Source of the DNA: Mucilaginibacter aquariorum
GTDB taxonomy: Bacteria > Bacteroidota > Bacteroidia > Sphingobacteriales > Sphingobacteriaceae
Reading direction: 5' to 3'
Length of the DNA stretch: 64,000 nucleotides
NCBI RefSeq assembly: GCF_024498135.1
Contig: NZ_JANHOH010000002.1
Coordinates: 682,001 to 746,000 of the forward strand
Made by a program: the position numbers and the translations under genes. Shown here in pieces: positions 768-43,460 of the stretch. Each line of letters starts with the position of its first letter. Position 1 is the first letter of the stretch. The notes below the pieces were generated by a model. The model was not told where the DNA came from. It ran no database searches and saw only the letters and a list, made by a program, of their open reading frames with translations.

Positions 768-1649
768 TCAAGATGCCCCCCGGTTAAATCCTATCGTATC
801 CCTGTAAAATTGCGGCGAAATATCTGTTTTGCCTTTAAAAACCCGGCTGAAATAATACTCGTCCTCATAGCCGAGTTCCCACGCGATTTCTTTAATGGTC
901 TTATCAGTAAGATATAATTCCCTTTTGGCTTCAATAATGATCCGTTCGGTGATCAGGTCTGATGGTGTTTTATTAAAATGATTTTTGGTGATCCGGGCAA
1001 GTGAAACCGGCGTCAGATTTAAAATATCGGCGTAATCGCTTGCAGAATGTTTTAACCGGAAATTGTCCTCGATCGCATTTTTCAGGTTCTGGATCAAAAA
1101 ATGTTGTTTACTGTTGGTGTTATCAGCATCCTGAAGGGTTTGCTGTTCAAGTTTTATCCTGGTGGCCATCACCAGTAATATTTTCACGTAAGAGACAAGC
1201 ACCTCATCTTTCCTGAACTCTTCGTCTTTTAATTCATTGGCTATTTGTTCGATGAGGTTTAAGATCGTTTTTTTACAACTTTTGTTGATGCAGACAAATG
1301 GCTGTTCATAGATATTGTTAAACAGAAGCCCGTTATTGGCTATTTCTTTATGGTGCCTGTAGATACAGAAAAAGTCATGATGGAACTGGATCGCGATACC
1401 TGTCAAAGTCCCTTTTGACAGCAACATAAATGGCTGGTAAGGATAGAATGCGAAAAGGGTATTTTCCTGGAAAGAATAGTCGCACATATCAACCCTGGCC
1501 AATCCTTCACCGGAAGTGATGAAGATGAGCGTGAAATAATTATTCCGCTGAATATGATCAAAATAGCTGTTATTATCGAACTCAAATAGTTTGAACGACA
1601 AATTTCCGTTCTGCTGATTGACGAGTGTATATACAGATTGAGATAACAT
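768..1649 (-). CDS. AraC family transcriptional regulator
   Basis: 293 residues. An N-terminal cupin-like sensing half (about residues 15-120) precedes a C-terminal pair of helix-turn-helix motifs (about 203-222 and 252-272, with IKEIAWELGYEDEYYFSRVF near the end), the standard AraC/XylS layout. The start codon lies 6 bp after the stop of the upstream deaminase gene, so the two are cotranscribed. AraC proteins bind direct repeats about two helical turns apart, and four promoters in this region, including its own, carry such repeats at 21 bp spacing. I infer that this protein is the activator of those promoters. The inducer is unknown. Confidence 0.93.
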   Translation of the reverse strand: MLSQSVYTLVNQQNGNLSFKLFEFDNNSYFDHIQRNNYFTLIFITSGEGLARVDMCDYSFQENTLFAFYPYQPFMLLSKGTLTGIAIQFHHDFFCIYRHHKEIANNGLLFNNIYEQPFVCINKSCKKTILNLIEQIANELKDEEFRKDEVLVSYVKILLVMATRIKLEQQTLQDADNTNSKQHFLIQNLKNAIEDNFRLKHSASDYADILNLTPVSLARITKNHFNKTPSDLITERIIIEAKRELYLTDKTIKEIAWELGYEDEYYFSRVFKGKTDISPQFYRDTIGFNRGAS

Positions 1650-1654
1650 GGTAC

Positions 1655-2173
1655 TTACGATTTAATAAATGTTTTACTGAACTGTTCGCTGAGGGCTTTA
1701 CACTCATCCGAACAAATTCCCCCGGTGATCTTCGGACCGGTTCCCCATTTTGGTACGTCCGCTGTAGACAGGATATTAAATCGGGAAGTTGAACCACCAA
1801 TATATGGTACAGAGGCCCCATATACCAGTTCAGGGATCTTGTGATGCCGGATCACGTAGGAACACATGATGCAGGGTTCATGCGTAGTATACATGATCGA
1901 TCTTTCCAATTGGTCTGCATGTCCGTTTTTTACAGCATCCCTTACCGCTAATATTTCCGCATGGTTGGTAACATCACCCGAGGACCTCCCTGATTCTATA
2001 CCTGTACCGATCACATTTCCATCAGAAACGATGATCGCGCCCACAGGTGGATTGCCGGCCGCCAAAGCGATCTTAGCAAGCTCTAAACACTGGCGCATGT
2101 AAATATTATATTCCTCTTCCATGATCTCCATTATAACGTTTGCCCCATTGGAAATTGGGATGGCACAATACAT
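1655..2173 (-). CDS. Nucleoside/cytidine deaminase-like zinc enzyme
   Basis: 172 residues with the deaminase zinc site: H71-A-E73 (proton shuttle Glu) and P100-C101-I-M-C104. This is the cytidine/guanine/tRNA-adenosine deaminase fold, which hydrolyses an amino group from a base; which base is not clear. Met15 or Met18 are alternative starts that remove a short hydrophobic leader unlike the family. It is the first gene of the deaminase-AraC-DHA2 exporter unit and is preceded by the AraC-type operator at 2253-2290 and a CATCTTTG box at 2223-2230. A base deaminase leading an exporter operon is unusual and hints at detoxification of a base analogue or of a nitrogen heterocycle; that is inference. 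Confidence 0.85.
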   Translation of the reverse strand: MYCAIPISNGANVIMEIMEEEYNIYMRQCLELAKIALAAGNPPVGAIIVSDGNVIGTGIESGRSSGDVTNHAEILAVRDAVKNGHADQLERSIMYTTHEPCIMCSYVIRHHKIPELVYGASVPYIGGSTSRFNILSTADVPKWGTGPKITGGICSDECKALSEQFSKTFIKS

Positions 2174-2222: not shown

Positions 2223-2230
2223 CAAAGATG
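2223..2230 (-). promoter_or_regulatory. -7 promoter box of deaminase-AraC-exporter unit
   Basis: On the minus strand this reads CATCTTTG, a one-mismatch match to the Bacteroidota -7 box TAnnTTTG. It stands exactly 23 bp from the proximal ATGG of the AraC-type operator, the same spacing as at the three sister promoters. Confidence 0.7.
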
Positions 2231-2252
2231 TGGTAGTCTTCCTTACCGGGGA

Positions 2253-2290
2253 ATGGATAATTTTTACTTTATGATGGATGATTTTTTAAT
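2253..2290 (-). promoter_or_regulatory. AraC-type direct-repeat operator A
   Basis: Two half-sites, written on the plus strand as ATGGATAATTTTT (from 2253) and ATGGATGATTTTTT (from 2274), start exactly 21 bp apart. The proximal one occupies the -33 position of the deaminase promoter, and no TTG -33 element is visible. This fits a promoter that needs an AraC activator. Confidence 0.75.
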
Positions 2291-2373
2291 TCAAAAGCCT
2301 TGCTGTTTCCTGATATTGCAAATTTAGCCGGGCTGCAGTACTTCAACTGCTGGCAGTTTTTCCGGCACATAAT

Positions 2374-2404
2374 AAGCCGCCCCAACATAAATTGGGAACG
2401 GCTT
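2374..2404 (-). terminator. Hairpin terminator after first old-yellow-enzyme gene
   Basis: Inverted repeat AAGCCG..CCCAA / TTGGG..CGGCTT with a six-base loop, about 80 bp beyond the stop of the gene ending at 2485. Its sequence is nearly the same as the terminator at 3688-3718. The T-run on the minus strand is weak. Confidence 0.6.
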
Positions 2405-2484
2405 TTCTGAGATCAGTCATAGTAAAATCATTTCCTGCCAATATTAACACGGCAGCATAACCCTGCTATAACAGGTGTAATTTA

Positions 2485-3570
2485 TCAGGAGCCCGGGCGT
2501 ACGAAAGTTTGCCATCCCCGCATGGTTTCGATAAAGCGCTCGCTCAGGCCGCCCTGGCGCAGATATTCCGCTGTTACCGGCATCTTTGGGCTTTCGTACA
2601 GCGGATTGGCTTTGACCTGAAGCGGGAAATCCCGCTGAAGAATGCCCGCCCGCGCGATCAGTACGAAGTCACAGCCTTCATCCAGTAATTCGCCCGCACG
2701 CTGCGCACTGTAGATCTTTCCGGCTGCCCCTAAACGGACGCCTTTGCGGGGAAGTTCGGTAAATATGCTGAGCAGGGTCTTTCCCTGGAATGTTCCTTCC
2801 CTGACGACCTGGGCCGAATCCCATAAGGCCAGGTCCAGGTAGTCGATCAACTCACGGTCAAAGATCTCTGCGGTGATCTCCCGCAGTTCCTCCAGGCGCA
2901 GTCCGTAGCGCTCGATAGATAAGCGCCAGCCGATCTGGAAATCCGGTCCGCAGGCCCGGCGAATGCCCTCAATGACCTCGATCGTGAAACGCGCGCGGTT
3001 CTCTACGCTGCCGCCATATTTATCCGTCCGGTCATTCAGATTCGGCGACAGGAATTCCGAAAGGATCCATCCGAAAGCGCCGTGAACTGAGACCCCGTCG
3101 AAACCAGCCAGCTGTGCTCTTTTGGCCGCCGCTATAAAACTGTCCCGGATCCGCTCTACCTCTTCGGTCGTGATCGCTTTGACACCTTTTACCGTTTTGT
3201 CTGACGCAGGTGCGGGAATTCCCCCGACTTCCGGAACGGCCCGATGGCCGGCGTGGTGTAACTGCACTGCCGATAATGCGCCGCCTTCGCGGATCGCTGT
3301 AGCCATACTGGTCAGCCCCGGCAAGTGGTTATCACTGTGGATTCCCAGTTGCCGCTCAAACGCGATACCCCCGGCTTCTACGGTAGCCGCACTGGTTTGG
3401 ATCAACGCGTAACCGCTTTGCGCAAGCTGCTCGATCCAAAATTGGTCGTATTCTGATGCTGTTCCGTCAAATTCACTTTGCTGGCTGGTCAAAGGTGCCA
3501 TCATGAAACGGTTTCTCATTGCCTTGCCGTGCAGCAAAGTAAGGGGTTTGAATAGATCACAGACTGCCAT
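2485..3570 (-). CDS. Old yellow enzyme family flavin oxidoreductase (copy 1)
   Basis: 361 residues, TIM-barrel FMN protein of the NADH:flavin oxidoreductase/OYE family, which reduces activated alkenes, quinones or nitro compounds. I start it at 3570 (MAVCDLFKP), matching its paralogue at 11710-12798; the longer frame reaching 3699 would run through the promoter and operator. The usual catalytic stretch H-x-x-(H/N)-x-Y is here H163-G-A-F166-G-W168, so the second ligand residue and the proton-donor Tyr are both replaced; the common Q-L-x-H-x-G-R motif reads VQLHHAGH. Single-gene unit with its own AraC-type operator. Confidence 0.92.
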   Translation of the reverse strand: MAVCDLFKPLTLLHGKAMRNRFMMAPLTSQQSEFDGTASEYDQFWIEQLAQSGYALIQTSAATVEAGGIAFERQLGIHSDNHLPGLTSMATAIREGGALSAVQLHHAGHRAVPEVGGIPAPASDKTVKGVKAITTEEVERIRDSFIAAAKRAQLAGFDGVSVHGAFGWILSEFLSPNLNDRTDKYGGSVENRARFTIEVIEGIRRACGPDFQIGWRLSIERYGLRLEELREITAEIFDRELIDYLDLALWDSAQVVREGTFQGKTLLSIFTELPRKGVRLGAAGKIYSAQRAGELLDEGCDFVLIARAGILQRDFPLQVKANPLYESPKMPVTAEYLRQGGLSERFIETMRGWQTFVRPGS

Positions 3571-3611
3571 TTCGATTAAGTTTATTGATATTGTTTTTAT
3601 ATACTCTATGA

Positions 3612-3619
3612 CAAAGATG
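3612..3619 (-). promoter_or_regulatory. -7 promoter box of old-yellow-enzyme copy 1
   Basis: Minus strand CATCTTTG, identical to the box at 2223-2230 and again 23 bp from the proximal ATGG of the operator. It implies a leader of about 35 nt before the ATG at 3570. Confidence 0.7.
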
Positions 3620-3641
3620 CCATTGAAATTGCCCCTATAGA

Positions 3642-3678
3642 ATGGATGATTTGCACTATCTGATGGATGATTTTGGAT
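3642..3678 (-). promoter_or_regulatory. AraC-type direct-repeat operator B
   Basis: Half-sites ATGGATGATTTGC (from 3642) and ATGGATGATTTTG (from 3663), exactly 21 bp apart, with the conserved spacer ACTATCTG between them. Same geometry relative to the -7 box as the three other copies. Confidence 0.78.
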
Positions 3679-3687
3679 ATCGTAAAA

Positions 3688-3718
3688 AAGCCACCCCAAC
3701 CGAAGTTGGGAATGGCTT
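3688..3718 (-). terminator. Intrinsic terminator of the RND efflux operon
   Basis: On the minus strand a stem AAGCC..CCCAAC / GTTGGG..GGCTT with a four-base loop is followed by a run of six T. It lies 26 bp beyond the end of the outer membrane factor gene. Confidence 0.85.
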
Positions 3719-3743
3719 CCCTCACATCACTCATCAATAAAGA

Positions 3744-5150
3744 TTATTTCCAGCCACCGCCAAGCGAGCGGTAAAGCTCTGCTACGGCACTTAACTGCTG
3801 GCGCTTAACCGAGGCCAGTTCGAGTTCACTTTGCAGCACATTACTTTGGGCCGTGATCACCTCCAGGTAGTTAGCCATGCCATTTTTAAATAACAGGTTG
3901 GCATTGCCTGTAGCCTGCTGCAGGGTGGTTACACGATTTGCAGCAATGGCCTGCCGTTCTTTCAATTTTTCAATTTTTACGAGGGCATCCGATACTTCAC
4001 CAACGGCATTGAGTACCGACTGGCGGAATTGCAGCACGACCTTCTCGCGCTCAATTTTTGATACCTCGTATTGGGTTTTTAATTTTTTGCGGTTAAATAT
4101 GGGTTGCAAAACACTACCCGCTACCGTGCCGAATAAGGATGCCGGTATATTGAACCAGTTACTGGCCTTTAAGGAGTTTACGCCACCCGCGGCTGTTATA
4201 TTCAGCACGGGATACATGTTGGCTTTATTGAAACCAACATTTGCATTGGCGACATTAAGCGCTAATTCGGCACTCCGTACATCCGGTCTGCGGCTCACGA
4301 CTACTGATGGCACCCCGGTCGGCACGCCCTCTGTTACCCTAAGCTGATCTAAACGCGTATTGCGTCCGATCTGAGCAGGCAAAGCACCGGTAAGGATGCG
4401 CAGGGCATTTTCCTGTATGGCGATGTTCTGCTCAAATTCGGGCACCAGTTGGGCGGCTGCCAGCTGCTGTGCTTCGGCCTGCTGAACAGCCAGGGAAGTC
4501 ACCTGTCCCGCCTGCAACTGCAATTTGATAATTTGAAGGGTACTATCGTTCAGCCTTACATTGCGACGGGCAATGTCCAGCTGTTCGTCCAGCATCAACA
4601 GGTTATAATACCCTTGTGATACCGATGAGACGATATTGGTTTGGATCGCCTTCCTGGCTTCAGCGGTCTGCAGGTATTGCGCCAGCGCGGCTTTACTCTG
4701 ATTACGGATCTTACCCCAGATATCGGCCTCCCATGATAACGAAAGATTAGCGCTGTAATCTTCGATATGGTTAGTACCTAAAAACTGGCCTACGGTTAAA
4801 CCATTCAAACTATTGTTTGACGGGTTGCTGGTATTCGCCGAAACGTTCAGGTTGACCTGTGGCGTGTAATTAAATTTGGTCTGTTTGAACAGCAGCCGCG
4901 AGGATTCGATGTTTTTTAATGCGATCTGCATATCATAGTTGTTGCTGATCGCACTATCGATCAGCTGTTGCAGGGTAGCATCAGTAAAAAAGTTTTTCCA
5001 CTGTATGTCAGCAATGCTGCTTGTATCGGCAGTGGCAACGGCATTCCTGAAAGCAGCAGGCAATGCCGGTTTCGGTGTTTCTATGTTCCTGGAAACGTTG
5101 CAGGCGCTTATGATCATCAGTAAGGTGAGCCCGCTTATTATTTTTTTCAT
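3744..5150 (-). CDS. Outer membrane efflux lipoprotein, NodT/TolC family
   Basis: 468 residues. The N-terminus MKKIISGLTLLMIISAC is a lipoprotein signal with lipobox ISAC, as in NodT-type outer membrane factors. The rest shows the repeated alpha-helical/beta-strand halves of TolC proteins, with SRRPDVRSAELAL marking the start of the second half. It is the exit duct of a tripartite pump: adaptor (8383-9519), permease (5168-8371) and this gene follow each other on the minus strand with gaps of 11-17 bp, and a terminator follows directly. The whole unit is probably repressed by the TetR protein encoded upstream. Confidence 0.95.
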   Translation of the reverse strand: MKKIISGLTLLMIISACNVSRNIETPKPALPAAFRNAVATADTSSIADIQWKNFFTDATLQQLIDSAISNNYDMQIALKNIESSRLLFKQTKFNYTPQVNLNVSANTSNPSNNSLNGLTVGQFLGTNHIEDYSANLSLSWEADIWGKIRNQSKAALAQYLQTAEARKAIQTNIVSSVSQGYYNLLMLDEQLDIARRNVRLNDSTLQIIKLQLQAGQVTSLAVQQAEAQQLAAAQLVPEFEQNIAIQENALRILTGALPAQIGRNTRLDQLRVTEGVPTGVPSVVVSRRPDVRSAELALNVANANVGFNKANMYPVLNITAAGGVNSLKASNWFNIPASLFGTVAGSVLQPIFNRKKLKTQYEVSKIEREKVVLQFRQSVLNAVGEVSDALVKIEKLKERQAIAANRVTTLQQATGNANLLFKNGMANYLEVITAQSNVLQSELELASVKRQQLSAVAELYRSLGGGWK

Positions 5151-5167
5151 TTGTTGAGATATTGATA

Positions 5168-8100
5168 TTATGATAATTCCGGTTCTAACTTTTTGATATC
5201 ATGCCCGTCTTTAGCATCGTCCGGATGTTTTTCAACAGGTGCCCCGCTAACTTTTTCCTGCAGGTGCTGGAATATGATGAACAGGACCGGTATAATGAAC
5301 AAGCCTAATAACACACCGGATACCATGCCGCCGGCTGCGCCGATACTGATAGAATGGTTACCCTGCGCAGATGGCCCTGTAGCAATACTCATCGGAAACA
5401 ATCCGGCCACGAACGCAACCGAGGTCATGATGATCGGGCGGAGCCTGAGTTTCGCTGCTTCTATCGCTGCTGAAACCAGCGACTGCCCGGCCTTTCTTCG
5501 CTGAACGGCAAACTCCACGATCAGGATCGCATTCTTAGCGAGCAAACCAACCAGCATGATCAGGGCGACCTGTACATAGATGCTGTTGGAAATACCCGTT
5601 AACCCGATGGCCACGAAAACACCGAATATTCCGGCAGGTAACGATAAGATTACCGCCAATGGAAGGATATAACTTTCGTATTGCGCTGCCAGCAAGAAGT
5701 AGACAAACACCAGACATAAGATAAAGACAAGTGTTGATTGCCCCCCGGATGCGATCTCTTCACGCGTTTGACCGGAGAATTCGTAGGAATAGCCTTCCGG
5801 CAGTTGCTTTGCAGCTACTTCCTCAACCGCTTTGATAGCAGCACCGGAACTGAACCCGGTCTTCGGTATGGCGTTGACCGAGATCGAATTAAACATGTTA
5901 TATCTGGAAACCGTCTCTGATCCATATACACGGGTTAGTTTCACCAGCGTGTTCATTGGAACCATATCACCCATTTTGTTCTTAACAAAAACACGGTCTA
6001 TGGATGACGGATCCGCCCGGTCAACAATATCCGCCTGCACCATCACGCGGTAATATTTACCAAAACGGTTAAAGTCTGATGCCTGGGCGCTGCCGAAATA
6101 AGCCTGCATCGTTTCCAGAATATCTTTTACGTTGACACCCAATTGACCTGCTTTGTCATCATCGATTTCCATCTGTAACTGTGGATAATCAGCTTTAAAA
6201 CTGGTAAAGGCTACGCCAATTTCGGGGCGTTTCATTAATTCTGCGATAAACTGCTGGGAGATATTACTGAACTTATCCAGTTTACCACCTGTTCTATCCT
6301 GCAGCACCAGGTCTAATGCTTCCACGCTGCTGAAACCCGGAACTGTCGGGAAACTGAAAACGAACGCACCGGCGCCGGTAATGGCACTCATTTTACCTCT
6401 TGCCACATCCATAACCGCATCGAGGTTTCTTACTTTACCCCGCTCTTTGTTCGGCTTCAGTAAAATATAGATGATCCCTTTGGACGGGCTCATGGAGTTG
6501 GTCAATACGTCAAAACCGGAAATGGCGGTCACAAAGCGCACAGCATCCATTTTCTTTAAGCTGATCTCTGCTTCTTTCATTACCTTTTGCGTACCGTCCA
6601 GTGTGGTACCGGATGGTGTATTCACAGCAATAGCGATGAATCCCTGATCTTCGGTGGGTATAAATGCGGACGGCGTAAATTTAATCAATACCACCGTAGC
6701 CACCGTTACCAGTGCTAAACCAGCCATGCTGAGCCATTTATGATTGATCAGGAATTTTAAGCCGCCTATATAACGATTGGTTATGGCGTTAAAACTGCTG
6801 TTGAACCCAATGAAGAACTTTTCTTTAAAGCTTCTGTTGACAGGTGTTCCTTCTACATGATCGTGCGAATGGACATCTTTCAGGAACAATGCAGCTAATG
6901 CCGGGCTTAAAGTTAAAGCATTCACTGCCGAAATGACGATTGCTATGGCCATGGTAAAGGCAAACTGGCGGTAGAACAGGCCGGTTGAACCTTCCATAGA
7001 ACCCACCGGCACGAACACGGCTGCCATCACCAACGTGATAGAGATGATCGCACCGGAAATTTCATGCATGGCTTCATGGGTAGCCGCTTTCGCCCCCAGG
7101 CCTTTATGCTCCATCTTGGCATGGACCGCCTCGACAACCACGATCGCATCATCCACTACGATACCGATGGCCAGGATCAGGGCAAACAGGGTCAGTAAGT
7201 TGATCGAGAAACCAAAGATATGCATGAAAAAGAATGTGCCCAATATCGCCACGGGGACAGCAATAGCCGGGATCAATGTCGACCGGAAATCCTGCAGGAA
7301 CAGGAATACCACGATGAATACCAAAACAAATGCTTCTATCAGTGTGTCTTTAACCTGGTCAATTGATTCATCCAAAGCTATTTTAGTACTAAAAAAGATC
7401 TGGTGTTTGATCCCTGCCGGAAAGCTTTTCGAGGCCTTTTCCATCGCTTTTCTTACCGCGATCTGCGTCTCATTTGCGTTGGCACCTGATAACTGAAGGA
7501 TACCGAGGACCACACCTTTTTTACCGCTTAAACGCGTTAAGCTGTTGTAAGAAAAAGTACCTAATTCCACTCTCGCCACATCTTTTAAGCGAAGTACTGA
7601 TCCGTCGGCATTGGATCTGATCGCAATATTCTCATATTCTTCCGGCTTGGTTAACTTACCTTTGTATTTGATCACATATTCGAATATCTCCTCACTGTGC
7701 TGACCGAATTTACCCGGCGCGGCTTCCAGACTTTTATCCTGGATGGCTCGTGTCACTTCGTCGGGAGTGACCTGGTGGGCCGACATTTGTGAAGGGTTTA
7801 ACCATACCCGCATAGAATAATCCTTGGACCCGCCGTATATGCTTGCCTGGCCCACGCCCGGAATACGTTTTAATTCAGGGAGGATGTTGATCTCTGCATA
7901 ATTGCCCACAAAGGTCTGGTCATATTTTGATTCATCCTCCGTATACAGGCCGATACCCATCATGAAGGTAACGTGTTGCTTGGAAGTGGTGATCCCTTGC
8001 TGGATAACTTCAGCGGGTAAATGACTTAATGCCTGTGATACCCGGTTTTGTACGTTGATCGCTGCCTGGTCCGGGTTAGTGCCCAGTTTGAAGTAAACGG

Positions 8101-8371
8101 CAATCGATAAGGTACCATCATTACTGGCAGTTGAATTCATATAGGTCATATCTTCAACACCGTTGATGGATTCCTCCAGCGATGGTGCTACGGAACGCAA
8201 CACGGTTTCTGCATTCGCGCCCGGATAAAGAGCACTTACCACTACAGAGGGCGGTGCAATATCGGGGAACTGTTGTATGGGCAACTTGATCAAACTGATC
8301 ACACCCAATATCACCAGTATGATGGAGATCACTGTCGCCAATACTGGTCTTTGTATAAATACTTTGAACAT
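5168..8371 (-). CDS. RND efflux permease, HAE1 (AcrB-like)
   Basis: 1067 residues, the full length of an AcrB-type inner membrane pump: 12 TM segments and two large periplasmic loops. The proton-relay pair is present in TM4 (GIVVDDAIVVVEAV, Asp near residues 405-407) and the matching Lys in TM10 (LLAKNAILIVEFA). The start FIQRPVLATVISIILVILG is typical of TM1. It exports amphiphilic drugs or metabolites by proton antiport together with the flanking adaptor and outer membrane factor. Compare the second RND permease at 16218-19457, which lacks the same relay residues. Confidence 0.97.
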   Translation of the reverse strand: MFKVFIQRPVLATVISIILVILGVISLIKLPIQQFPDIAPPSVVVSALYPGANAETVLRSVAPSLEESINGVEDMTYMNSTASNDGTLSIAVYFKLGTNPDQAAINVQNRVSQALSHLPAEVIQQGITTSKQHVTFMMGIGLYTEDESKYDQTFVGNYAEINILPELKRIPGVGQASIYGGSKDYSMRVWLNPSQMSAHQVTPDEVTRAIQDKSLEAAPGKFGQHSEEIFEYVIKYKGKLTKPEEYENIAIRSNADGSVLRLKDVARVELGTFSYNSLTRLSGKKGVVLGILQLSGANANETQIAVRKAMEKASKSFPAGIKHQIFFSTKIALDESIDQVKDTLIEAFVLVFIVVFLFLQDFRSTLIPAIAVPVAILGTFFFMHIFGFSINLLTLFALILAIGIVVDDAIVVVEAVHAKMEHKGLGAKAATHEAMHEISGAIISITLVMAAVFVPVGSMEGSTGLFYRQFAFTMAIAIVISAVNALTLSPALAALFLKDVHSHDHVEGTPVNRSFKEKFFIGFNSSFNAITNRYIGGLKFLINHKWLSMAGLALVTVATVVLIKFTPSAFIPTEDQGFIAIAVNTPSGTTLDGTQKVMKEAEISLKKMDAVRFVTAISGFDVLTNSMSPSKGIIYILLKPNKERGKVRNLDAVMDVARGKMSAITGAGAFVFSFPTVPGFSSVEALDLVLQDRTGGKLDKFSNISQQFIAELMKRPEIGVAFTSFKADYPQLQMEIDDDKAGQLGVNVKDILETMQAYFGSAQASDFNRFGKYYRVMVQADIVDRADPSSIDRVFVKNKMGDMVPMNTLVKLTRVYGSETVSRYNMFNSISVNAIPKTGFSSGAAIKAVEEVAAKQLPEGYSYEFSGQTREEIASGGQSTLVFILCLVFVYFLLAAQYESYILPLAVILSLPAGIFGVFVAIGLTGISNSIYVQVALIMLVGLLAKNAILIVEFAVQRRKAGQSLVSAAIEAAKLRLRPIIMTSVAFVAGLFPMSIATGPSAQGNHSISIGAAGGMVSGVLLGLFIIPVLFIIFQHLQEKVSGAPVEKHPDDAKDGHDIKKLEPELS

Positions 8372-8382
8372 GGTCGTAAAAC

Positions 8383-9519
8383 TTAGTTTTTGTTAATTAA
8401 TTGGGCTGTTTTATCCGCGGCTTTGTCCGGGTGGATCTCCTGCCCGTCCTGCAGGCGGTCAAAACCACTCAGTACGATCTGGTCGCCCGACTTTACACCA
8501 TCTTTAATGAGGTATTTGTCGCCGCTTTTGCCAATGACCGAGATCTGCGTTTTGGCTACTTTGTTATCTTTGCCGACTGCAAAAACAAATACCTTATCCT
8601 GTATCTCTACGGTGGCAGATTGGGGTACCAGGATGGCATCGTCATGTTGGAGGCCCAGCCTGATCTTACCGGTATTACCCGAGCGTAAAATGCCGCTGGC
8701 ATTTGGAAAGCTGGCTCGTAAAGTGATCGCTCCGGTGTTTTTATCGAACTGACCATCGATCATATCAATTTTACCTTTAACCGGATAGGCGGACTGATCA
8801 GCCAGAACCAGTTCAACCGGCGGTAAATGTTTGATCCTGTCAGCAGGCGTTTTGCCTGGGTAATGCAGGTTGAAACTGTTAAAATCATTTTCTGCCAAAG
8901 CGAAGTAAACATGCACCTCGTGGATATCAGACAGCTGCGTTAAGGCGATCTGGTCAGCAGGGGAAACTAAGCTTCCCTGTTTCTTGGGAATGCGGCCGAT
9001 ATAACCGCTTACGGTTGCTTTAACATTGGTATAGCTTAAATTGATCTGGGCCGACGCAACATTTGCCCTGGCCTGTTCTGCATTCGACCGGGCGATCTGA
9101 AGCGTGGTCTTTGCGGTTTTTAGCTGAAAATCTGAAACGACCTTATTCTCTACGAGCGGGGTGAGTTTATCCACTTCCAGTTGCGCGTTCAGGATTGCCG
9201 CTTCAGCAGCGTGCAAGCTTGCTTTGGCATTATTTAACGCCTCTTTAAAAGGCTGGGCATTGATTTGGAATAAGGTTTGCCCTGCAGAAACATAAGCGCC
9301 CTCGTTAACTAAAACACTTTGTAAATATCCGCTGACCTGTGGGCGGATATCAATATCTACCGCACCCTGAATGGATGCCGGGTATTCCTGGAAAGTAGTT
9401 TCGGAAGCACTGGCGATAGTGCCTACCGGCAATGACGGCGGCGGGGCCTGGGGTGTTTGCGGTGTTGATGAACAGCCGTATAATGCAATGGCGACAAGCG
9501 CTAAAATGATATTTTTCAT
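8383..9519 (-). CDS. RND efflux periplasmic adaptor (membrane fusion lipoprotein)
   Basis: 378 residues with a lipoprotein signal (LVAIALYGCSS). The order is beta-barrel, lipoyl half, alpha-hairpin (about 100-150) and the return lipoyl half (VSGYIGRIPKKQGSLV), as in AcrA/MexA. First structural gene of the adaptor-permease-outer membrane factor operon. The upstream gap of 116 bp holds an inverted repeat GTTAACGG/CCGTTAAC that may be the TetR operator. Confidence 0.95.
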   Translation of the reverse strand: MKNIILALVAIALYGCSSTPQTPQAPPPSLPVGTIASASETTFQEYPASIQGAVDIDIRPQVSGYLQSVLVNEGAYVSAGQTLFQINAQPFKEALNNAKASLHAAEAAILNAQLEVDKLTPLVENKVVSDFQLKTAKTTLQIARSNAEQARANVASAQINLSYTNVKATVSGYIGRIPKKQGSLVSPADQIALTQLSDIHEVHVYFALAENDFNSFNLHYPGKTPADRIKHLPPVELVLADQSAYPVKGKIDMIDGQFDKNTGAITLRASFPNASGILRSGNTGKIRLGLQHDDAILVPQSATVEIQDKVFVFAVGKDNKVAKTQISVIGKSGDKYLIKDGVKSGDQIVLSGFDRLQDGQEIHPDKAADKTAQLINKN

Positions 9520-9589
9520 TTGATTAATTTTTTAATGATGTTAATTGGAAGAATCAGTACTGCCTGATGGCAGACAATGAGTTAAATCG

Positions 9590-9622
9590 GTTAACGGCGA
9601 AAAATAAAAGAACACCGTTAAC
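9590..9622. promoter_or_regulatory. Inverted repeat, candidate TetR operator of the efflux operon
   Basis: GTTAACGG at 9590-9597 and its exact reverse complement CCGTTAAC at 9615-9622, with 17 bp between. It lies between the TetR gene and the adaptor gene. A related short palindrome TAACGGCGTTA occurs at 10265-10275 just ahead of the TetR start, so the repressor may control both itself and the pump. A -7-like TATTTTTC lies between the arms on the minus strand. Confidence 0.45.
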
Positions 9623-9635
9623 GAAGGGTCAAAAG

Positions 9636-10244
9636 CTAAGTTGCTTTTGCAATGGAATTGATGATATCGCTTATCGCGACTTTCAGTACCTGGTTATTCA
9701 TTTCATCGGAATACCCTCTTTTTAAGATATTAATAGAAATTAGCCCGTGAACAACAGACCAGAAAGTGTAATATTTTAAGCAGATGACATCCGGGGAAGG
9801 GTTAGCCGAATTCATCAGGCTTAGAATTACTTCCCTGAACTGGTTAAGCGGATTCTTGGACTCCGGCAGTTCTTCGACCACACCACAGCAACAATTGATC
9901 TGGACGCCGAACATGAGCTGGTAGAGTTCCTGGTTCGCGAATGCGAAGTCCCAGTAGGCCAGCCACATCGCTTCCAGTTGACTTGCCGGAAGATCGTGCT
10001 TATTTCGGGCCGCCTGTATATCTTTTGACAGGATCAGGTAGCCGCGCCTGGTGAGCTCAAGCAATATGGCTTCTTTGTTATTGAAATATTCATAGATAAC
10101 GGGCGGCGTATATTCAATTGCATCAGCAATTTTGCGCATGCTTAAAGACTGCCATCCTTCCTCGATCGCGATGCGCAGCGATGCATCCAGGATATTGATC
10201 CGGGTTTCATCTTTTAAGCGTTGAATTCTGTCTTTACTTGCCAC
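9636..10244 (-). CDS. TetR/AcrR family repressor, probable regulator of the RND pump
   Basis: About 202 residues from a GTG start at 10244 (MASKDRIQRLKDE). No ATG is available ahead of the helix-turn-helix; the frame extends further to another GTG at 10343, but that lies in the terminator hairpin of the neighbour, so I reject it. The N-terminal HTH (SMRKIADAIEYTPPVIYEYF) is clear; the C-terminal ligand domain has a Cys pair near CCCGVVEEL. It sits directly upstream of, and on the same strand as, the adaptor-permease-outer membrane factor genes. The ligand is unknown. Confidence 0.9.
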   Translation of the reverse strand: MASKDRIQRLKDETRINILDASLRIAIEEGWQSLSMRKIADAIEYTPPVIYEYFNNKEAILLELTRRGYLILSKDIQAARNKHDLPASQLEAMWLAYWDFAFANQELYQLMFGVQINCCCGVVEELPESKNPLNQFREVILSLMNSANPSPDVICLKYYTFWSVVHGLISINILKRGYSDEMNNQVLKVAISDIINSIAKAT

Positions 10245-10264
10245 TTTTGTGTTATTAAATTGTC

Positions 10265-10275
10265 TAACGGCGTTA
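10265..10275. promoter_or_regulatory. Short palindrome TAACGGCGTTA ahead of TetR gene
   Basis: Perfect 5-bp arms around a central G, 21 bp upstream of the GTG start. It shares the core TAACGG with the inverted repeat at 9590-9622. Possible autoregulatory half-site pair. Confidence 0.35.
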
Positions 10276-10337
10276 CGAAACGGGAACTTTGTTATTTGTG
10301 TTGATTTCCTTAAAGTATTTCGATTAGCCGGGAATAA

Positions 10338-10373
10338 GATCACTGCTCCCGGATCTGGCCGGAAACAGTGATC
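10338..10373 (-). terminator. Hairpin after the DsrE-like gene
   Basis: GATCACTG at 10338-10345 pairs perfectly with CAGTGATC at 10366-10373, with an inner CCGG/CCGG pair. It lies just beyond the stop of the DsrE-like gene. Confidence 0.6.
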
Positions 10374-10383
10374 AGTAATAATT

Positions 10384-10749
10384 TTAGAAGATCAGGATGT
10401 TATACCCCTCATTTCTCAGGTTAAGGAAACTTGGAAGTCCTGGTGTTCCGGGTACTTCGTTATCACCCAACAGGTCGTAACCCGATACTTCGGTTCCGAA
10501 TACAGCAACGCAGCCTTTGGAAAGCCCGTGAACATGATCCTTCACTTCCTTATAAAGCCCGTAAACCGGATGCTCAGGTTTCTCCAGTTGCTCAGGCCAC
10601 CTGATGCCGGCACCCTGGAAAATAATTTTTACATCTTCACCAGCATGTTTGAATTCATATGCCGATGCCAAAGCGTTGAATACGCGTCCGAGTGCTTCTT
10701 CTGAACCAGCCTTGGGATCAGACAGAATTATGATAGCTGTTTTGCTCAT
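10384..10749 (-). CDS. DsrE/DsrF-like small protein
   Basis: 121 residues with the DsrE-fold start (KTAIIILSDPKAGSEEALGRVFNALASAYEF) and a glycine-rich end with GTEVSGYDLL. DsrE-fold proteins often carry sulfur on a Cys or act as small redox partners; here the only Cys is in KGCVAVFG, at the position often used in the family, so sulfur carriage is possible but unproven. It is a single-gene unit with its own AraC-type operator and CATCTTTG box, so it belongs to the same proposed regulon as the two OYE genes and FrnE. Confidence 0.8.
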   Translation of the reverse strand: MSKTAIIILSDPKAGSEEALGRVFNALASAYEFKHAGEDVKIIFQGAGIRWPEQLEKPEHPVYGLYKEVKDHVHGLSKGCVAVFGTEVSGYDLLGDNEVPGTPGLPSFLNLRNEGYNILIF

Positions 10750-10775
10750 ATTATCTTTTGTATTTATTTACAATG

Positions 10776-10783
10776 CAAAGATG
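10776..10783 (-). promoter_or_regulatory. -7 promoter box of the DsrE-like gene
   Basis: Minus strand CATCTTTG, 27 bp ahead of the ATG and 23 bp from the operator. The leader must be about 20 nt. Confidence 0.7.
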
Positions 10784-10805
10784 CCCTGCTATTCATTCGT
10801 CATGA

Positions 10806-10842
10806 ATGGAGGATTCCTACTATCTAATGGATGATTTTTATA
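10806..10842 (-). promoter_or_regulatory. AraC-type direct-repeat operator C
   Basis: Half-sites ATGGAGGATTCCT (from 10806) and ATGGATGATTTTT (from 10827), 21 bp apart, with spacer ACTATCTA. Same placement as copies A, B and D. Confidence 0.78.
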
Positions 10843-10925
10843 AAGCTGGCACCGGTGCGCTAACAGAAATGACCCGTATGACAGACCGGCTTTCATTGAC
10901 CGGCCACATCATTTTTTGAAAATAA

Positions 10926-10958
10926 AAAGGCCTGCAAGTAGAATACTCGCAGGCCTTT
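10926..10958 (-). terminator. Intrinsic terminator of the FrnE-OYE2-Nudix unit
   Basis: AAAGGCCTGC and GCAGGCCTTT form a perfect 10-bp stem; on the minus strand the stem ends in five T followed by ATT. About 45 bp beyond the Nudix stop codon. Confidence 0.88.
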
Positions 10959-11003
10959 CCATATGGTTTGACAGATACTAAGGCGACGGTGAAACAGACA
11001 ATA

Positions 11004-11681
11004 TCACCTTTCAGTGTGCATAAGATCAGCGTTTATAACTGACAATAGTTCACGGATCATTTTAGCCGTGGCGCCCCAGATCTTGTGGCCCTCTACTTCA
11101 TAATGCGGTGTTAAAACCCGGTCACCAGGAATCAGGATTTCGCTGCATCCGACGCTGTTTGGCTCCAAAAAATGATCAATCCGGGTTTCAAAAACAGCTT
11201 TGACTTCTCTGGGATCGGGCAGGAATTCCGGCCTGTAATTGAGGTAGCCGATGACCGGAAGCACCAGAAAATCGCTTGGTGCGATATAGATCTCGGTGAG
11301 CGTTCCCAATATTGTTACGTCTGCTATCTTCAACCCGATCTCTTCCTGCGCCTCGCGGAGCGCGGTTTGGATCAGATCGCTGTCAGTCACTTCGTGCCTG
11401 CCGCCCGGAAATGCAACCTGCCCCGAATGAACGCCATCATAGGAATTCCGCAATATCAAAGGCAAATAGATCCCATCCCTGAAAGGATATAACAACATTA
11501 ATACAGCGCTCTTCCGGGATCCCTCGTTAGGTTTGATACCAAGATATGCCGCGGATGTGGCTTCCATCATCTGGTGAGCCGCTTCACCGGGAAGCTGCTC
11601 TTTCAGGTTACAACTAAGCTTTTCTATAAATGAAGAGAATATTTTTTTTGCAGCCATATCAGGTATTTTAAAACGGTTCAT
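11004..11681 (-). CDS. Nudix hydrolase, CoA pyrophosphatase-like
   Basis: 225 residues with a complete Nudix box, G-G-R-H-E then seven residues later REAQEEIGL, which binds the metal and the diphosphate. The region LPLILRNSYDGVHSGQVAFPGG resembles the NudL/CoAse subgroup, which cleaves coenzyme A or acyl-CoA into 4-phosphopantetheine and ADP. Met9 is a possible alternative start. It is the third gene of the FrnE-OYE2-Nudix unit (28 bp after OYE2). A role in clearing CoA adducts would fit an electrophile-response regulon, but that is inference. Confidence 0.85.
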   Translation of the reverse strand: MNRFKIPDMAAKKIFSSFIEKLSCNLKEQLPGEAAHQMMEATSAAYLGIKPNEGSRKSAVLMLLYPFRDGIYLPLILRNSYDGVHSGQVAFPGGRHEVTDSDLIQTALREAQEEIGLKIADVTILGTLTEIYIAPSDFLVLPVIGYLNYRPEFLPDPREVKAVFETRIDHFLEPNSVGCSEILIPGDRVLTPHYEVEGHKIWGATAKMIRELLSVINADLMHTER

Positions 11682-11709
11682 TGCCGTAGTGAGAGTTAGC
11701 AGCCATTGA

Positions 11710-12798
11710 TCACGGCGAGTTTGGAAAAACGATCGTCTGCCATCCCCGTAAGTGATTGATAAAGCGCTCGGGAAGTCCTCCCTGACGTAAATGTTCTGCC
11801 ATCACCGGCATTTTTACGCTTTCGTATGCCGGGTTTGCCTTTACCTGAAGCGGAAAGTCCCGCTGAATAATTCCTGCCCGCGCGATCAGCACAAAATCGC
11901 AGCCTTCATCCAGCAACTCTCCGGCACGCCGGGCGGTCATGATCTTGCCGGCTACACCCAGGCGAACGCCCTTGCGGGGAAGCTCTGTAAAAAGACTGAG
12001 CATGCTTTTTCCCTTGAATTGTCCTTCGTGAACGACCTGGGCTGAATCCCATAAAGCCAGGTCCAGGTAGTCGATCAGTTCGCGATCAAAGATATAAGCG
12101 GTAACAGCACGCAGTTCTTCCAAAACCAGTCCATATCGCTCGATAGATAAGCGCCAGCCGATTTGAAAATCAGGGCCGCATTCCCGGCGGATGCCCTCGA
12201 TGACCTCGATTGTCAGACGTGCACGGTTCTCCAGGCTTCCCCCGTACTTATCATTACGGTCATTCAAATAGGGTGACATAAATTCTGAAAGGATCCAACC
12301 AAAAGCTCCGTGTACGGCGACGCCATCGAACCCTGCGAGCTGGGCTCTCTTTGCGGCCGTGATAAAGCTGTCGCGGATCCGCTCCACCTCTTCGGTGGTG
12401 ATCGCATCAACTCCAGGTACCGTGTCGCTCGAAGCGGGTGCAGGTATCCCTCCTAAGAGCGGGTTGGCACGGTGTCCGGCATGGTGTAATTGCACCGCGG
12501 ACAAACCGCCGCCCACTCGTATGGTTGACGCTATCCTTGTCAGTCCCGGCAAATGTTCATCGCTGTGAATACCAAGCTGGCGGGCAAACGCAATGCCACT
12601 TGCTTCCACAGTAGTAGCACAGGTTTGGATCAGTGCATAACCGCTTTCTGCAAGCTGTTCGTACCATATATGGTCAAATTCGGATGCCGTGCCGTCGAAT
12701 TCACTTTGTTGATTCGTAAGCGGTGCCAGCATGAAACGGTTTCGCATGGCCGGACCATGTAGCAGCGGCAGCGGCTTAAACAGATCAGATACAGCCAT
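11710..12798 (-). CDS. Old yellow enzyme family flavin oxidoreductase (copy 2)
   Basis: 362 residues, collinear with and very similar to the copy at 2485-3570 over the whole length. It has the same unusual active site: H163-G-A-F166-G-W168 in place of H-x-x-(H/N)-x-Y, and QLHHAGH in place of QLxHxGR. The FMN-binding C-terminal elements (VRLGVAGKI, FVLIARAGI) are intact, so a folded flavoprotein is expected. Middle gene of a three-gene unit; start 38 bp after FrnE, so its expression depends on the AraC-type promoter at 13547-13618. Confidence 0.93.
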   Translation of the reverse strand: MAVSDLFKPLPLLHGPAMRNRFMLAPLTNQQSEFDGTASEFDHIWYEQLAESGYALIQTCATTVEASGIAFARQLGIHSDEHLPGLTRIASTIRVGGGLSAVQLHHAGHRANPLLGGIPAPASSDTVPGVDAITTEEVERIRDSFITAAKRAQLAGFDGVAVHGAFGWILSEFMSPYLNDRNDKYGGSLENRARLTIEVIEGIRRECGPDFQIGWRLSIERYGLVLEELRAVTAYIFDRELIDYLDLALWDSAQVVHEGQFKGKSMLSLFTELPRKGVRLGVAGKIMTARRAGELLDEGCDFVLIARAGIIQRDFPLQVKANPAYESVKMPVMAEHLRQGGLPERFINHLRGWQTIVFPNSP

Positions 12799-12835
12799 CT
12801 TGATTATATTTTACTTTATACATCATTTCTATTGT

Positions 12836-13507
12836 TTAGCTTTCACAAGTATCACCTGAACACGATCCCCCGTTACTTGGCAGCGGAACATGTTGACTGT
12901 TTAACCAATCGTCGACAACGATTTTCAGGCCGTCATAATCCTGAAATCCACGGGTGATGACTTTAATCTTTCCGTTATCGATGGTAAGCAGCGTCGGAAA
13001 GCCCTGAACGCCTAGCTGACGGCTAAATTGAAAGCCCTGATTTGTTTTTAGCTTCGTTTCTTCGGAGTGGAACCGCTCCAAAAAGACCGGCTTCTCAACG
13101 CCGATTTCTGCAGCCAGTTCTGCGAGTACCGCGCCATTGGTAATATCCTTTCCTTCTACGTAGAATGCTTTTTGCATCAGGCTCAGAAACACGAAGTCCT
13201 GATCAGGCAACAATTCCTTTATCACCATTAATGCACGGCTTGACGGTTCGGTATCATAGCGGAAGGTATCAGAGATGAACTTCATCGAGTGATCGAAAAA
13301 CTGTCCGCTCCGCGCGTTTACATTGTTCCAGTGATAAGCCAGGAATTCCTTATATTCATCGTCAACAACTTGCTTGCTATAGGGCGAAAATCCGCCTGAA
13401 ATGATCTCAAGGTCTATATCTTTGTAGTTCTCTTTCAATTTTTTTACGGCAGGACTAAAGCCATAGCACCACGAACACATTGGGTCTGTAAAATAATACA
13501 TTTTCAT
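12836..13507 (-). CDS. FrnE-like DsbA family thiol oxidoreductase
   Basis: 223 residues from the ATG at 13507 (MKMYYFTDPMCSWCYGF). The active-site CSWC follows the first strand directly, as in the cytoplasmic FrnE branch of DsbA proteins, and there is no signal peptide. The tail ends with C-S-G-D-T-C, a CX4C pair like the second thiol motif reported for Deinococcus FrnE. The longer start at 13549 is excluded because it would begin inside the -7 box. First gene of the FrnE-OYE2-Nudix unit. Confidence 0.9.
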   Translation of the reverse strand: MKMYYFTDPMCSWCYGFSPAVKKLKENYKDIDLEIISGGFSPYSKQVVDDEYKEFLAYHWNNVNARSGQFFDHSMKFISDTFRYDTEPSSRALMVIKELLPDQDFVFLSLMQKAFYVEGKDITNGAVLAELAAEIGVEKPVFLERFHSEETKLKTNQGFQFSRQLGVQGFPTLLTIDNGKIKVITRGFQDYDGLKIVVDDWLNSQHVPLPSNGGSCSGDTCES

Positions 13508-13546
13508 AATTCCAACTTTTACTTCTGAATAGTTTTGTTTACTTAG

Positions 13547-13554
13547 CAAAGGTG
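13547..13554 (-). promoter_or_regulatory. -7 promoter box of the FrnE-OYE2-Nudix unit
   Basis: Minus strand CACCTTTG, 23 bp from the proximal operator half-site as in the other three copies. It decides that FrnE starts at 13507. Confidence 0.7.
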
Positions 13555-13576
13555 CCGTGTCAATCCTTTTAATAGA

Positions 13577-13613
13577 ATGGAGGATTTTTACTATCTGATG
13601 GAGGATTTTTTAG
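13577..13613 (-). promoter_or_regulatory. AraC-type direct-repeat operator D
   Basis: Half-sites ATGGAGGATTTTT (from 13577) and ATGGAGGATTTTTT (from 13598), exactly 21 bp apart with spacer ACTATCTG. The cleanest of the four copies. Confidence 0.8.
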
Positions 13614-14832: not shown

Positions 14833-16212
14833 ATGCACTATCTTAAAAGATATGGGTGCGTGGCAATATTGTGTTTCATTGCAATAAATGTCCATGCCCA
14901 GCAACGGGTTACGCTCAAATACCTGTTAAACAGAGTAGAGCAGAGAGCGCCGGCTTTAATCGCAGATTCAGCTTCAATTGCCGTCAGACAGGCGCAGGCG
15001 GTTGAGACCCGCAACAATTGGCTGCCTAATTTAAAATTGAATTACCAGGCTGATATTGGTACAAATAACAATACCGCCGGCCCTTATTTCGGCTTTGGAC
15101 TAATACCCTCTAACTCGCGCGGGGTGCGTACGGAAAATAATACCTCCGCAGTTTTAACAAACCTCGGCATCGCTGCCCTGGATTGGGAAATTTATAATTT
15201 CGGCGCATATGCGGCACAAAATAAAGTAGCCGGATCTGATATTGCAGTTGAACAAAATCAGTTCCAGCAATCTAAATATAAACTTCAGGCCTACACCATT
15301 GGTAACTTCTTGCAGCTGCTTCGGTTGCAGGATTACATTTCTATACAATCGCGCAATATTGACCGTAACCAGCAGATCAGACGGTCTATTCAATCACTCG
15401 CTAAAAGCGGCATCAGGCCGGGTGTGGATACAAGTATTGCCGAAGCCGAACTTTCCAAAGCACGGCTGATTTATATCGAACTGGATAACCAGCTCAAACA
15501 GACACAGCTTCAATTAGCCGCCGTTAGCGGCTTGCCTTATCAGGCAATTGTTCCCGATACGGTTGCAGAAACCCGGTTGGCACAGGCAAATGTACCTGAA
15601 AGCATTGTTATGGATACAGCCAACCATCCCATTATCAACTATTACAAGTCCATTGTTGACAATAGCCGGCAAAGGGAGGAACTTGTTAAAAAGCAATATA
15701 ATCCGAAGATATTGCTGGAAGCCGCTGCCTGGGGCCGCGGTTCCAGCGTCGATGCTAATGATCAGTTTAACAACTTGTCAAGCGGCTGGGGATTCAGCCG
15801 GAACAACTATCTGGTTGGCGTCGGTATCTCCTATAACCTGTTCGACCTGCGGCATAAGCAGCTAAAGCTTCGTACGCAAAAGGCAACGACAAACTACGCT
15901 ATAAGGGAACTTGATGAACAAAAGTCCCTGCTTGCATTGGGCGTTAGTCAGGCTGATGTGGAACTGAATACAGCAAAACAGCGACTGATGGAAATTCCCA
16001 ATCAATTAAAAGCGGCAAACGCAGGCTACCGTCAAAAATTGTCACTATATAAAAGCGGCTTAACAGATATTATCGAGTTAAATGCCGCCCTCAATATTTT
16101 ATATCGGGCGGAGACAGATTACGCCCGGGCAAGGTTTGCATATGCCAGTGCTTTATTCCAAAAAGCGGTTACCGGTAACCAGGTCGGTTCCATCTTAAAT
16201 CTTTTAAATTAA
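14833..16212 (+). CDS. TolC family outer membrane efflux protein
   Basis: 459 residues with a cleavable signal peptide (MHYLKRYGCVAILCFIAINVHAQQ) and two TolC/OEP repeats (about 25-230 and 250-450). Unlike the NodT-type copy at 3744 it is not a lipoprotein. First gene of a plus-strand operon TolC-RND permease-adaptor, 5 bp before the permease. It forms the outer membrane exit channel of this second pump. Ends with a typical helix of the family (ARFAYASALFQKAVTG). Confidence 0.93.
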   Translation: MHYLKRYGCVAILCFIAINVHAQQRVTLKYLLNRVEQRAPALIADSASIAVRQAQAVETRNNWLPNLKLNYQADIGTNNNTAGPYFGFGLIPSNSRGVRTENNTSAVLTNLGIAALDWEIYNFGAYAAQNKVAGSDIAVEQNQFQQSKYKLQAYTIGNFLQLLRLQDYISIQSRNIDRNQQIRRSIQSLAKSGIRPGVDTSIAEAELSKARLIYIELDNQLKQTQLQLAAVSGLPYQAIVPDTVAETRLAQANVPESIVMDTANHPIINYYKSIVDNSRQREELVKKQYNPKILLEAAAWGRGSSVDANDQFNNLSSGWGFSRNNYLVGVGISYNLFDLRHKQLKLRTQKATTNYAIRELDEQKSLLALGVSQADVELNTAKQRLMEIPNQLKAANAGYRQKLSLYKSGLTDIIELNAALNILYRAETDYARARFAYASALFQKAVTGNQVGSILNLLN

Positions 16213-16217
16213 AAATT

Positions 16218-19457: not shown

Positions 19458-19462
19458 AAAAC

Positions 19463-43410: not shown

Positions 43411-43460
43411 GATCCATTAACTGTTGTACATATAAGCGAATTTAAGAAGTATGCTGTCTG

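Follow-up and report, generated by a model that had tools for sequence, protein, structure and literature searches.

In a 64,000-nucleotide stretch of the Mucilaginibacter aquariorum genome (contig NZ_JANHOH010000002.1, positions 682,001 to 746,000; hereafter the window), four minus-strand promoters carry an operator built as a 21-bp direct repeat, TCCAT-N16-TCCAT, and one of the four units behind them encodes an AraC-family regulator. We propose that this regulator (AraC, gene at 768-1649) is the cognate class II activator of all four units, deaminase-AraC, OYE1, DsrE and FrnE-OYE2-Nudix, and that it responds to thiol-reactive stress; taken as a whole this reading is likely. Its parts differ in strength, in that the link between regulator and operator is, from sequence comparison, highly probable, activation of the operator-bearing promoters by AraC is very probable, and a thiol-reactive inducer has only slightly better than an even chance. 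Judged in this way, regulator and operator are a real cis/trans pair and the regulon is of known architecture. Neither the regulon and its operator code nor an oxidant/electrophile response of this kind for environmental Bacteroidota was found described in the literature searched, which did not cover most subscription journals.

The four operators were confirmed at the promoters where a first-pass annotation of the window had placed them. On the minus strand they read AAATC(A/C)TCCAT-N5-AGT-N3-AAT(C/T)(A/C)TCCATTC, followed after 20 nt in 4/4 sites by the -7 octamer CATCTTTG or CACCTTTG. The 21-bp period is exact in 4/4 sites, as the annotation had stated, and all four share one spacing to the -7 box, 22 nt (counted from the ATGGA half-site to the octamer) and not the 23 bp given. 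The four operators had also been called identical, which is too strong since the 34-mers are 79-88% identical in pairs; the element ATGGAKGATTT, said to occur twice per promoter, is exact in both half-sites at OYE1 and FrnE and has one mismatch each in the deaminase and DsrE units. With at most 3 mismatches, the two-half-site pattern occurs 4 times in the window against a shuffled mean of 0.01 (0/100 shuffles reach 4), and a search of the whole genome (5,965,450 bases) with the 34-mer at the same tolerance returns the 4 window sites only (reversed control 0). A looser pattern that includes the -7 box has 4 perfect matches in the genome, again the window's four, and its 10 one-mismatch matches are background-like, the control giving 9 at no more than one mismatch. 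Around the operators (60 nt upstream, the 20-nt spacer and 60 nt downstream) pairwise identity falls to 20-45%. The operators are therefore islands of conservation and not a copied block, and from these flank identities their likeness appears to be kept by selection rather than recent copying.

The anatomy of the promoters was examined in 83 operators, the 4 in the window and 79 in 41 ortholog loci; the latter come from searching GTDB species genomes with the AraC protein, where 129 loci were found and 80 kept, of which 41 reach at least 73% identity. The slot at -33 holds TTC in 44 operators, TTT in 34 (together 78/83), TGT in 3 and TTA in 2. The absence of a TTG element there, noted at first pass, thus extends to the whole set (0/83), and the proximal half-site does take its place, since TCCATTY covers the slot. 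The lack of TTG is by itself unremarkable because only 18 of 128 ordinary TAnnTTTG sites have TTG at the proper distance, and 5/83 operators have one within a few bases of the slot; the remarkable point is the exact substitution by TCCATTY. The first base of the -7 octamer is C or G in 80/83 operators and T in 3/83. The Bacteroidota sigma-A consensus at -7 is TAnnTTTG, according to the accessible part of PMC9723704, and T is the commonest first base (116/306) at NAnnTTTG sites upstream of open reading frames (ORFs) of at least 150 aa in the 41 loci, operators included. Both these 83 promoters and the 98 regulator/operator pairs described below were chosen by the TCCAT/TCCAT/TTTG pattern with 1-2 mismatches allowed, so that the invariance of these three elements is partly built in. 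That pattern left free the -33 slot, the spacer letters and the base with which the -7 box begins; the 83 operators had, in addition, to lie within 6 mismatches of the 34-mer, in which the slot ends in C. A canonical sigma-70 promoter scan performed at chance level (23 vs 23.6) and was discarded.

Two direct repeats of which the proximal one lies over -33/-35 define a class II site, and the repeats are present in 4/4 promoters. The layout, as far as sequence can tell, is that of a class II AraC-type activator site, activation itself being predicted. Both promoter elements are conservedly off-consensus, which fits dependence on an activator. The repeats of XylS have a period of 21 bp. The arrangement at the window's promoters resembles XylS/Pm of Pseudomonas putida, where two direct repeats serve the two helix-turn-helix (HTH) motifs of a dimer; in the accessible part of PMC5481539, XylS binds two 15-bp direct repeats that are, by one reading of an ambiguous sentence, 6 bp apart and so of 21-bp period, and overlap of its site with that of RNA polymerase appears as a title in the reference list. 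It differs from XylS/Pm in the half-site (TCCAT here, TGCA/GGTA boxes there), in the Bacteroidota sigma factor with its -7/-33 promoter and in the genes controlled.

Strong support for assigning the sites to the neighbouring AraC gene as its operators comes from the 41 ortholog loci, from co-occurrence within the genus and from the diverged operators of paralogs. The ortholog loci include Chryseobacterium, Flavobacterium, Pedobacter, Mucilaginibacter, Chitinophaga, Niastella, Taibaiella and Xanthocytophaga; all 41 have an operator near the AraC gene (at most 6 mismatches), most often two, and the spacing is shared by other families. Since this locus scan had no control of its own and also matches 14 of 39 sister loci (L046-L084, counted), the argument rests on the controls of two further searches, one genome-wide with a 62-nt pattern and one upstream of 112 AraC genes. 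The 62-nt pattern, loosened on the ortholog sites, has 1-4 matches in 40/40 ortholog genomes (L028 left out) and none in the reversed control (0/40). By table count, 66 of its 86 matches belong to OYE or DsrE cassettes, which leaves 20 at other places. Thirteen of these 20 carry the letters of the sister clade (12 GCG, 1 GTG), and the four inspected (L156, L158, L160, L161) are upstream of a 53-54% AraC paralog. The other seven include two that head a 204-aa gene (PNPOx-like by profile in L155; L157) and three that head a 293-294-aa gene beside or near FrnE-Nudix (an ExsA_N-type AraC by profile in L159; L033; L169).

Within the genus, the strict operator (at most one mismatch) occurs in 3/149 genomes, our own included (control 0), and the same three contain an AraC of at least 80% identity and an OYE of at least 83%. 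By hand calculation this three-way agreement would arise by chance about 2 times in a million if the genomes were independent, which they are not. The first-pass annotation had named the motif at many unrelated promoters in genomes without the AraC gene as evidence against its reading; the strict operator is present in 0/146 congeners lacking the ortholog, among them 58 that have AraC paralogs only (37-58% identity, E at most 1e-60). Two of the three positive congeners (G581, G611) share coordinates with L006 and L009 (M. conchicola and M. pedocola), and the genus test therefore overlaps with the 40-genome search. No AraC above 57% identity was found in a sample of 150 other genomes of the family, and the best in a phylum sample of 395 genomes, besides our own, reaches 56%. 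A family-wide scan at 3 mismatches was too noisy to use, with matches in 29/151 genomes (own included) and control matches in 13/151 (counted); its matches include one-mismatch ones in G040 and G082. Those of G017 and G096, the latter placed by coordinates only, and 2/3 of those of G054 are found upstream of an AraC paralog belonging to the genome in question.

Sister AraCs stand at the head of separate operons, preceded by a diverged operator, e.g. AAATTGTCCATCACCTTGCGTTAATCCTCCATTT, that keeps both the 21-bp period and the spacing to TTTG. Allowing one mismatch, TCCAT-N16-TCCAT-N26-TTTG was found on the same strand within 4.5 kb upstream of 98/112 AraCs, against 1/112 in the reversed-sequence control; the 112 comprise the window's AraC, L005-L084 and 31 from L146-L154 and L173-L195 (L085-L145 and L155-L172 left out). 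AraCs with an operator reach down to 40% identity. The letters of the second box split by clade, AGT in the window clade vs GCG in the sister clade. Residue K215, in the recognition helix of the first HTH, agrees with CG in 91 of 97 protein/operator pairs (one of the 98 dropped for HTH gaps), but the test of independent pairs finds only about 2.5 that are informative; K219 shows no such trend. As nearly all of the agreement comes from one split of the tree, the K215/second-box statement holds at clade level only. Specificity at the level of residues was considered and given up, because the mutual information is dominated by clade structure and the N-terminal domain co-varies equally; no contact is claimed.

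AraC has the two parts expected of the AraC/XylS family. Its C-terminal double HTH matches PF12833 over residues 206-284, above cut-off, and in the structural model residues 6-170 form a cupin-like N-terminal domain, predicted to serve regulation and dimerisation, that aligns with the regulatory domain of RhaR (Z 15.8, root-mean-square deviation 3.0 over 153 residues). Matches by domain are RhaR, BgaR, AraC and MarA, the DNA-binding part being like MarA/AraC; these were preferred to the top Foldseek rows (ToxT, Rns, CsvR), whose TM values are 0.3-0.4 over the whole chain. The model has a mean predicted local distance difference test (pLDDT) score of 82 and falls below 50 at residues 97-106 despite their conserved residues, a stretch that might reflect a switch or metal site. 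Cys95 is invariant in 112/112 AraCs, within F-H90-x2-F-[FY]-C95-I-x2-H99-x2-E102, and H90, H99 and E102 are conserved at 97% or more. Residue 56 is Cys in 31/42 members of the ortholog clade, and in the sister clade it is usually Ser (L046 and L047 counted in neither).

From the operators, their uniqueness in the genome, their conservation and their co-occurrence with the regulator we infer binding and activation as follows. An AraC dimer would place one monomer on each 21-bp unit (TCCAT and the second box about 10 bp further), and the monomer over the -33 slot would recruit RNA polymerase with the primary sigma factor of Bacteroidota. Promoters without a proper -33 element and with an off-consensus -7 box would thus undergo XylS/Pm-like class II activation, and AraC would drive OYE1, DsrE and FrnE-OYE2-Nudix in addition to the unit that encodes it. 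Thiol-reactive agents (electrophiles, for example quinones or enones, or oxidants such as HOCl) would be sensed through Cys95 and its neighbours in the cupin-like domain, and the induced enzymes would remove the electrophile by reduction and repair or buffer thiols. The regulon may in this way serve defence against electrophiles or quinones, as the first-pass annotation had suggested.

We derive the proposed thiol-reactive signal from Cys95, from the thiol and flavin enzymes (Cys80 of DsrE is invariant in 40/40 and the FrnE CxxC, CSWC, in 10/10), from the sister operons, whose profiled representatives encode AhpD/CMD, DUF1348, PNPOx and thioredoxin proteins, and from parallels with RclR, XenB and NemA. 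We take both XenB and NemA to be OYE-family enzymes. In Pseudomonas aeruginosa, RclR switches on a gene of the AhpD type in response to HOCl and HOSCN, and HOCl induces the oxidoreductase XenB (accessible text of PMC7950407). In the NemR-nemA/gloA system thiol-reactive compounds induce a reductase gene for quinones, ketones and aldehydes, NemA being part of the electrophile response, and RclR uses Cys21 and Cys89 (both from the accessible part of PMC7464077). Like RclR (E. coli rclABC, P. aeruginosa rclX), our regulator is an AraC-family protein beside redox enzymes, and its sister clade may share the AhpD-type target; by published description RclR differs in its cysteine pair, where one invariant cysteine is found here, and in the genes regulated. 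The NemR regulon likewise puts a reductase gene under electrophile-type control, except that NemR is a TetR-family repressor and here the regulator is AraC-type.

Several observations weigh against the reading that we prefer. Only one cysteine is invariant, so that a conserved two-cysteine disulfide switch of the RclR kind is not indicated. No operator was found for 14/112 AraCs, including all five at 37-39% identity; of the 14, L058, L078, L147, L152, L175, L185 and L187 (the last five 3.8-kb loci) have less than 2 kb of upstream sequence. Co-variation of the HTH1 helix with the operator is inseparable from shared ancestry. The genome has 65 HTH_18 matches, of which one is in the window; that AraC is the only such gene there, as pointed out at first pass, is correct within the window and weak as an argument, and it is the conservation in relatives that singles this gene out among the 65. 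Finally, AraC shows a weak likeness to HpaA, the regulator of 4-hydroxyphenylacetate catabolism and the closest NCBIfam AraC model by score (TIGR02297, 9e-27), with 94 bits, well under the 274.65 of the cut-off; no search for hpa genes was made.

The likeness to HpaA would suit a different use of the same cis/trans pair, in which AraC senses a particular small aromatic or heterocyclic ligand with its cupin pocket and controls a pathway of catabolism or xenobiotic conversion. The modelled fold is that of ligand-binding AraC proteins (RhaR, BgaR, AraC), and the deaminase and the ene-reductases could process one substrate in sequence. However, DsrE, FrnE and the CoA-type Nudix would have no evident place in such a pathway, and the AhpD/CMD and thioredoxin genes of the sister operons, together with the invariance of Cys95, also argue against it; we consider it unlikely, if worth keeping in mind. 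It is improbable that AraC instead represses the four promoters from -33 until the signal releases it. RNA polymerase could be blocked by a protein bound over the -33 slot, but promoter elements that are both conservedly off-consensus fit activator dependence, and direct repeats at a promoter are the activator arrangement of XylS/Pm. Use of the operators by another regulator, for which the many HTH_18 proteins and the tetR gene inside the cluster offer candidates, is very improbable given that the operator accompanies AraC in 41 loci, that the same 3/149 congeners contain both, that the 58 paralog-only congeners lack the strict operator, and that TetR homologs are present in just 4/41 ortholog loci. 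A dispersed repeat or recently duplicated promoter without regulatory role, as the paralogy of OYE1 and OYE2 could suggest, is scarcely credible against the divergent flanks, the lack of a further copy in the genome and a spacing kept in other bacterial families.

Table 1. Features of the proposed AraC regulon (window coordinates)
Feature	Position	Strand	Basis or remark
DHA2-type exporter, 463 aa	1..731	-	type by sequence reading; next after AraC; extends past window; ORF L227 5341-6732
AraC-family regulator, 293 aa, proposed cognate activator	768..1649	-	HTH_18 2.5e-18
Nucleoside/tRNA-deaminase-like enzyme (dCMP_cyt_deam_1)	1655..2173	-	PF00383 4e-25
-7 box CATCTTTG, deaminase-AraC unit	2223..2230	-	
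Operator, deaminase-AraC unit	2251..2284	-	pattern scan
OYE-family flavin oxidoreductase 1 (OYE1)	2485..3570	-	PF00724 5.5e-57
-7 box CATCTTTG, OYE1	3612..3619	-	
Operator, OYE1	3640..3673	-	pattern scan
TetR	9636..10343		inside cluster
DsrE-like protein, 121 aa	10384..10749	-	PF02635 6e-4, 20.4 bits, below gathering score 22.7
-7 box CATCTTTG, DsrE	10776..10783	-	
Operator, DsrE	10804..10837	-	pattern scan
Nudix hydrolase, CoA-pyrophosphatase-like	11004..11681	-	PF00293; NF007980 7e-25, below cut-off
OYE-family oxidoreductase 2 (OYE2), 83% identical to OYE1	11710..12798	-	profile and alignment
FrnE/DsbA-like thiol oxidoreductase (CSWC)	12836..13507	-	PF13743 1.3e-14, PF01323 1.8e-12; start set after promoter
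-7 box CACCTTTG, FrnE-OYE2-Nudix unit	13547..13554	-	
Operator, FrnE-OYE2-Nudix unit	13575..13608	-	pattern scan

The deaminase of the first unit is probably not the housekeeping TadA: it scores 90.4 bits against the TadA model NF008113 (cut-off 150), and it has three homologs elsewhere in the genome at 32-37% identity. Its HAE and PCxxC motifs are invariant in 39/39. The best Protein Data Bank (PDB) matches of OYE1 are chromate reductases (5ogt, 5nux, 3hf3), with "xenobiotic reductase B" also among the OYE matches; DsrE has no PDB sequence match up to E = 1. The exporter, which the first-pass annotation had counted among the members, is peripheral and not a core gene, as the 41 ortholog loci contain no homolog with 50% or more identity to the 246-aa part in the window. 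A TetR-MFP-RND-TolC efflux set lies on the minus strand between OYE1 and DsrE (3744-10343); in 4/41 loci an RND pump homolog (at least 70%) lies no more than 10 kb from the AraC ortholog, and in L159 TetR and MFP homologs stand beside an OYE. By ORF reading, a second TolC-RND-MFP-like set adjoins the regulon on the plus strand (14833-20545; 459, 1079 and 360 aa), and 42853-46648 holds a possible sulfur cluster with a YeeE/YedE-like membrane protein, an MBL-rhodanese fusion, a sulfite-exporter-like protein and a Crp-type regulator.

Under set identity limits and within 10 kb, the 41 ortholog loci contain DsrE in 39, the deaminase in 38, OYE in 36, Nudix in 10 and FrnE in 9. The first gene behind their 79 operators is DsrE (37), OYE (33) or FrnE (3) in 73/79; the remainder comprise a 293-aa gene (2; an ExsA_N-type AraC by profile in L029, the other in L033), the deaminase (1), a 305-aa gene (1) and two with none found. 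In the commonest layout OYE is one unit and DsrE, AraC and the deaminase the other. The window departs from this in that deaminase-AraC stands apart from DsrE with its own operator, OYE is doubled, FrnE-OYE2-Nudix has been added, and the TetR-MFP-RND-TolC set is interposed. An operator-led FrnE is common to the window, Chitinophaga YR627 and two Mucilaginibacter (L005, L006, L009), and in several relatives FrnE and Nudix adjoin another AraC with a related operator; the pair thus looks like a partial addition to the regulon. As FrnE-Nudix of L159 lies behind such an AraC, one regulon may have captured genes of another, and the FrnE unit of the window may be such a takeover. A variant cassette (L041, L045, L046, L047, L022) has DsrE (64-77%) followed by a 305-aa protein, PNPOx-like in L022, and no OYE in the locus. 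In Flavobacterium L020, L023 and L027 a 163-aa gene, a peptide methionine sulfoxide reductase in L020, lies behind AraC.

In a quick tree of 53 of the 112 AraCs, the window protein falls in a starred set of 18 rows shared by AraCs of Chryseobacterium, Chitinophaga, Taibaiella, Pedobacter and Mucilaginibacter. The tree needs 6 changes for Sphingobacteriaceae (4 forced by the starred branches) and 7 for Chitinophagaceae (5 forced). Together with presence in 3/149 congeners it suggests horizontal spread of the AraC cassette, of which a tree of this kind is no proof. Plasmid carriage was considered and dropped, only two AraC relatives (42%) being on plasmids, in Hymenobacter. A cassette of Bacteroidota type is also present in a metagenomic bin labelled Actinomycetota (L046, Williamsia), perhaps a misbinned contig. 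A third operator type, TAATTATCCAT...AATTGTCCATTT (L159:5724, L155:5682, L157:5171), stands before an ExsA_N-type AraC that FrnE and Nudix follow, or before a 204-aa gene, and possibly marks a second related regulon in Flavobacterium. At L172:2641 and L172:6092, promoters of the TCCAT-N16-TCCAT type precede a gene for a DUF5107/TPR protein and, next to it, an ORF of 1012 aa, with a distant AraC (31%) adjoining, and the code may therefore reach past redox genes.

A wider picture can be offered tentatively, as a possibility that we would not yet favour. These regulators may constitute one large Bacteroidota AraC subfamily with a common promoter code, the activator site standing in for the -33 element and the -7 box being held off-consensus, and a common sensor motif (a possible metal/thiol site), a counterpart of RclR and NemR in which each member guards a different enzyme set, OYE-DsrE-deaminase here and AhpD-DUF1348-PNPOx in the sister clade. 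The OYE-DsrE cassette would then be a horizontally moving "regulon in a box", split in the window into four operator-bearing units and enlarged by FrnE-Nudix gained from a related AraC regulon.

To our knowledge, few Bacteroidota transcription factors have known operators. Here the regulator, its operator, the diverged operators of its sister regulators and their gene sets can all be read from sequence alone, and the 98 protein/operator pairs are material for testing AraC recognition and the activation of promoters served by the unusual sigma factor of Bacteroidota. Should the cysteine hypothesis be true, the regulon would provide environmental Bacteroidota with an oxidant/electrophile response.

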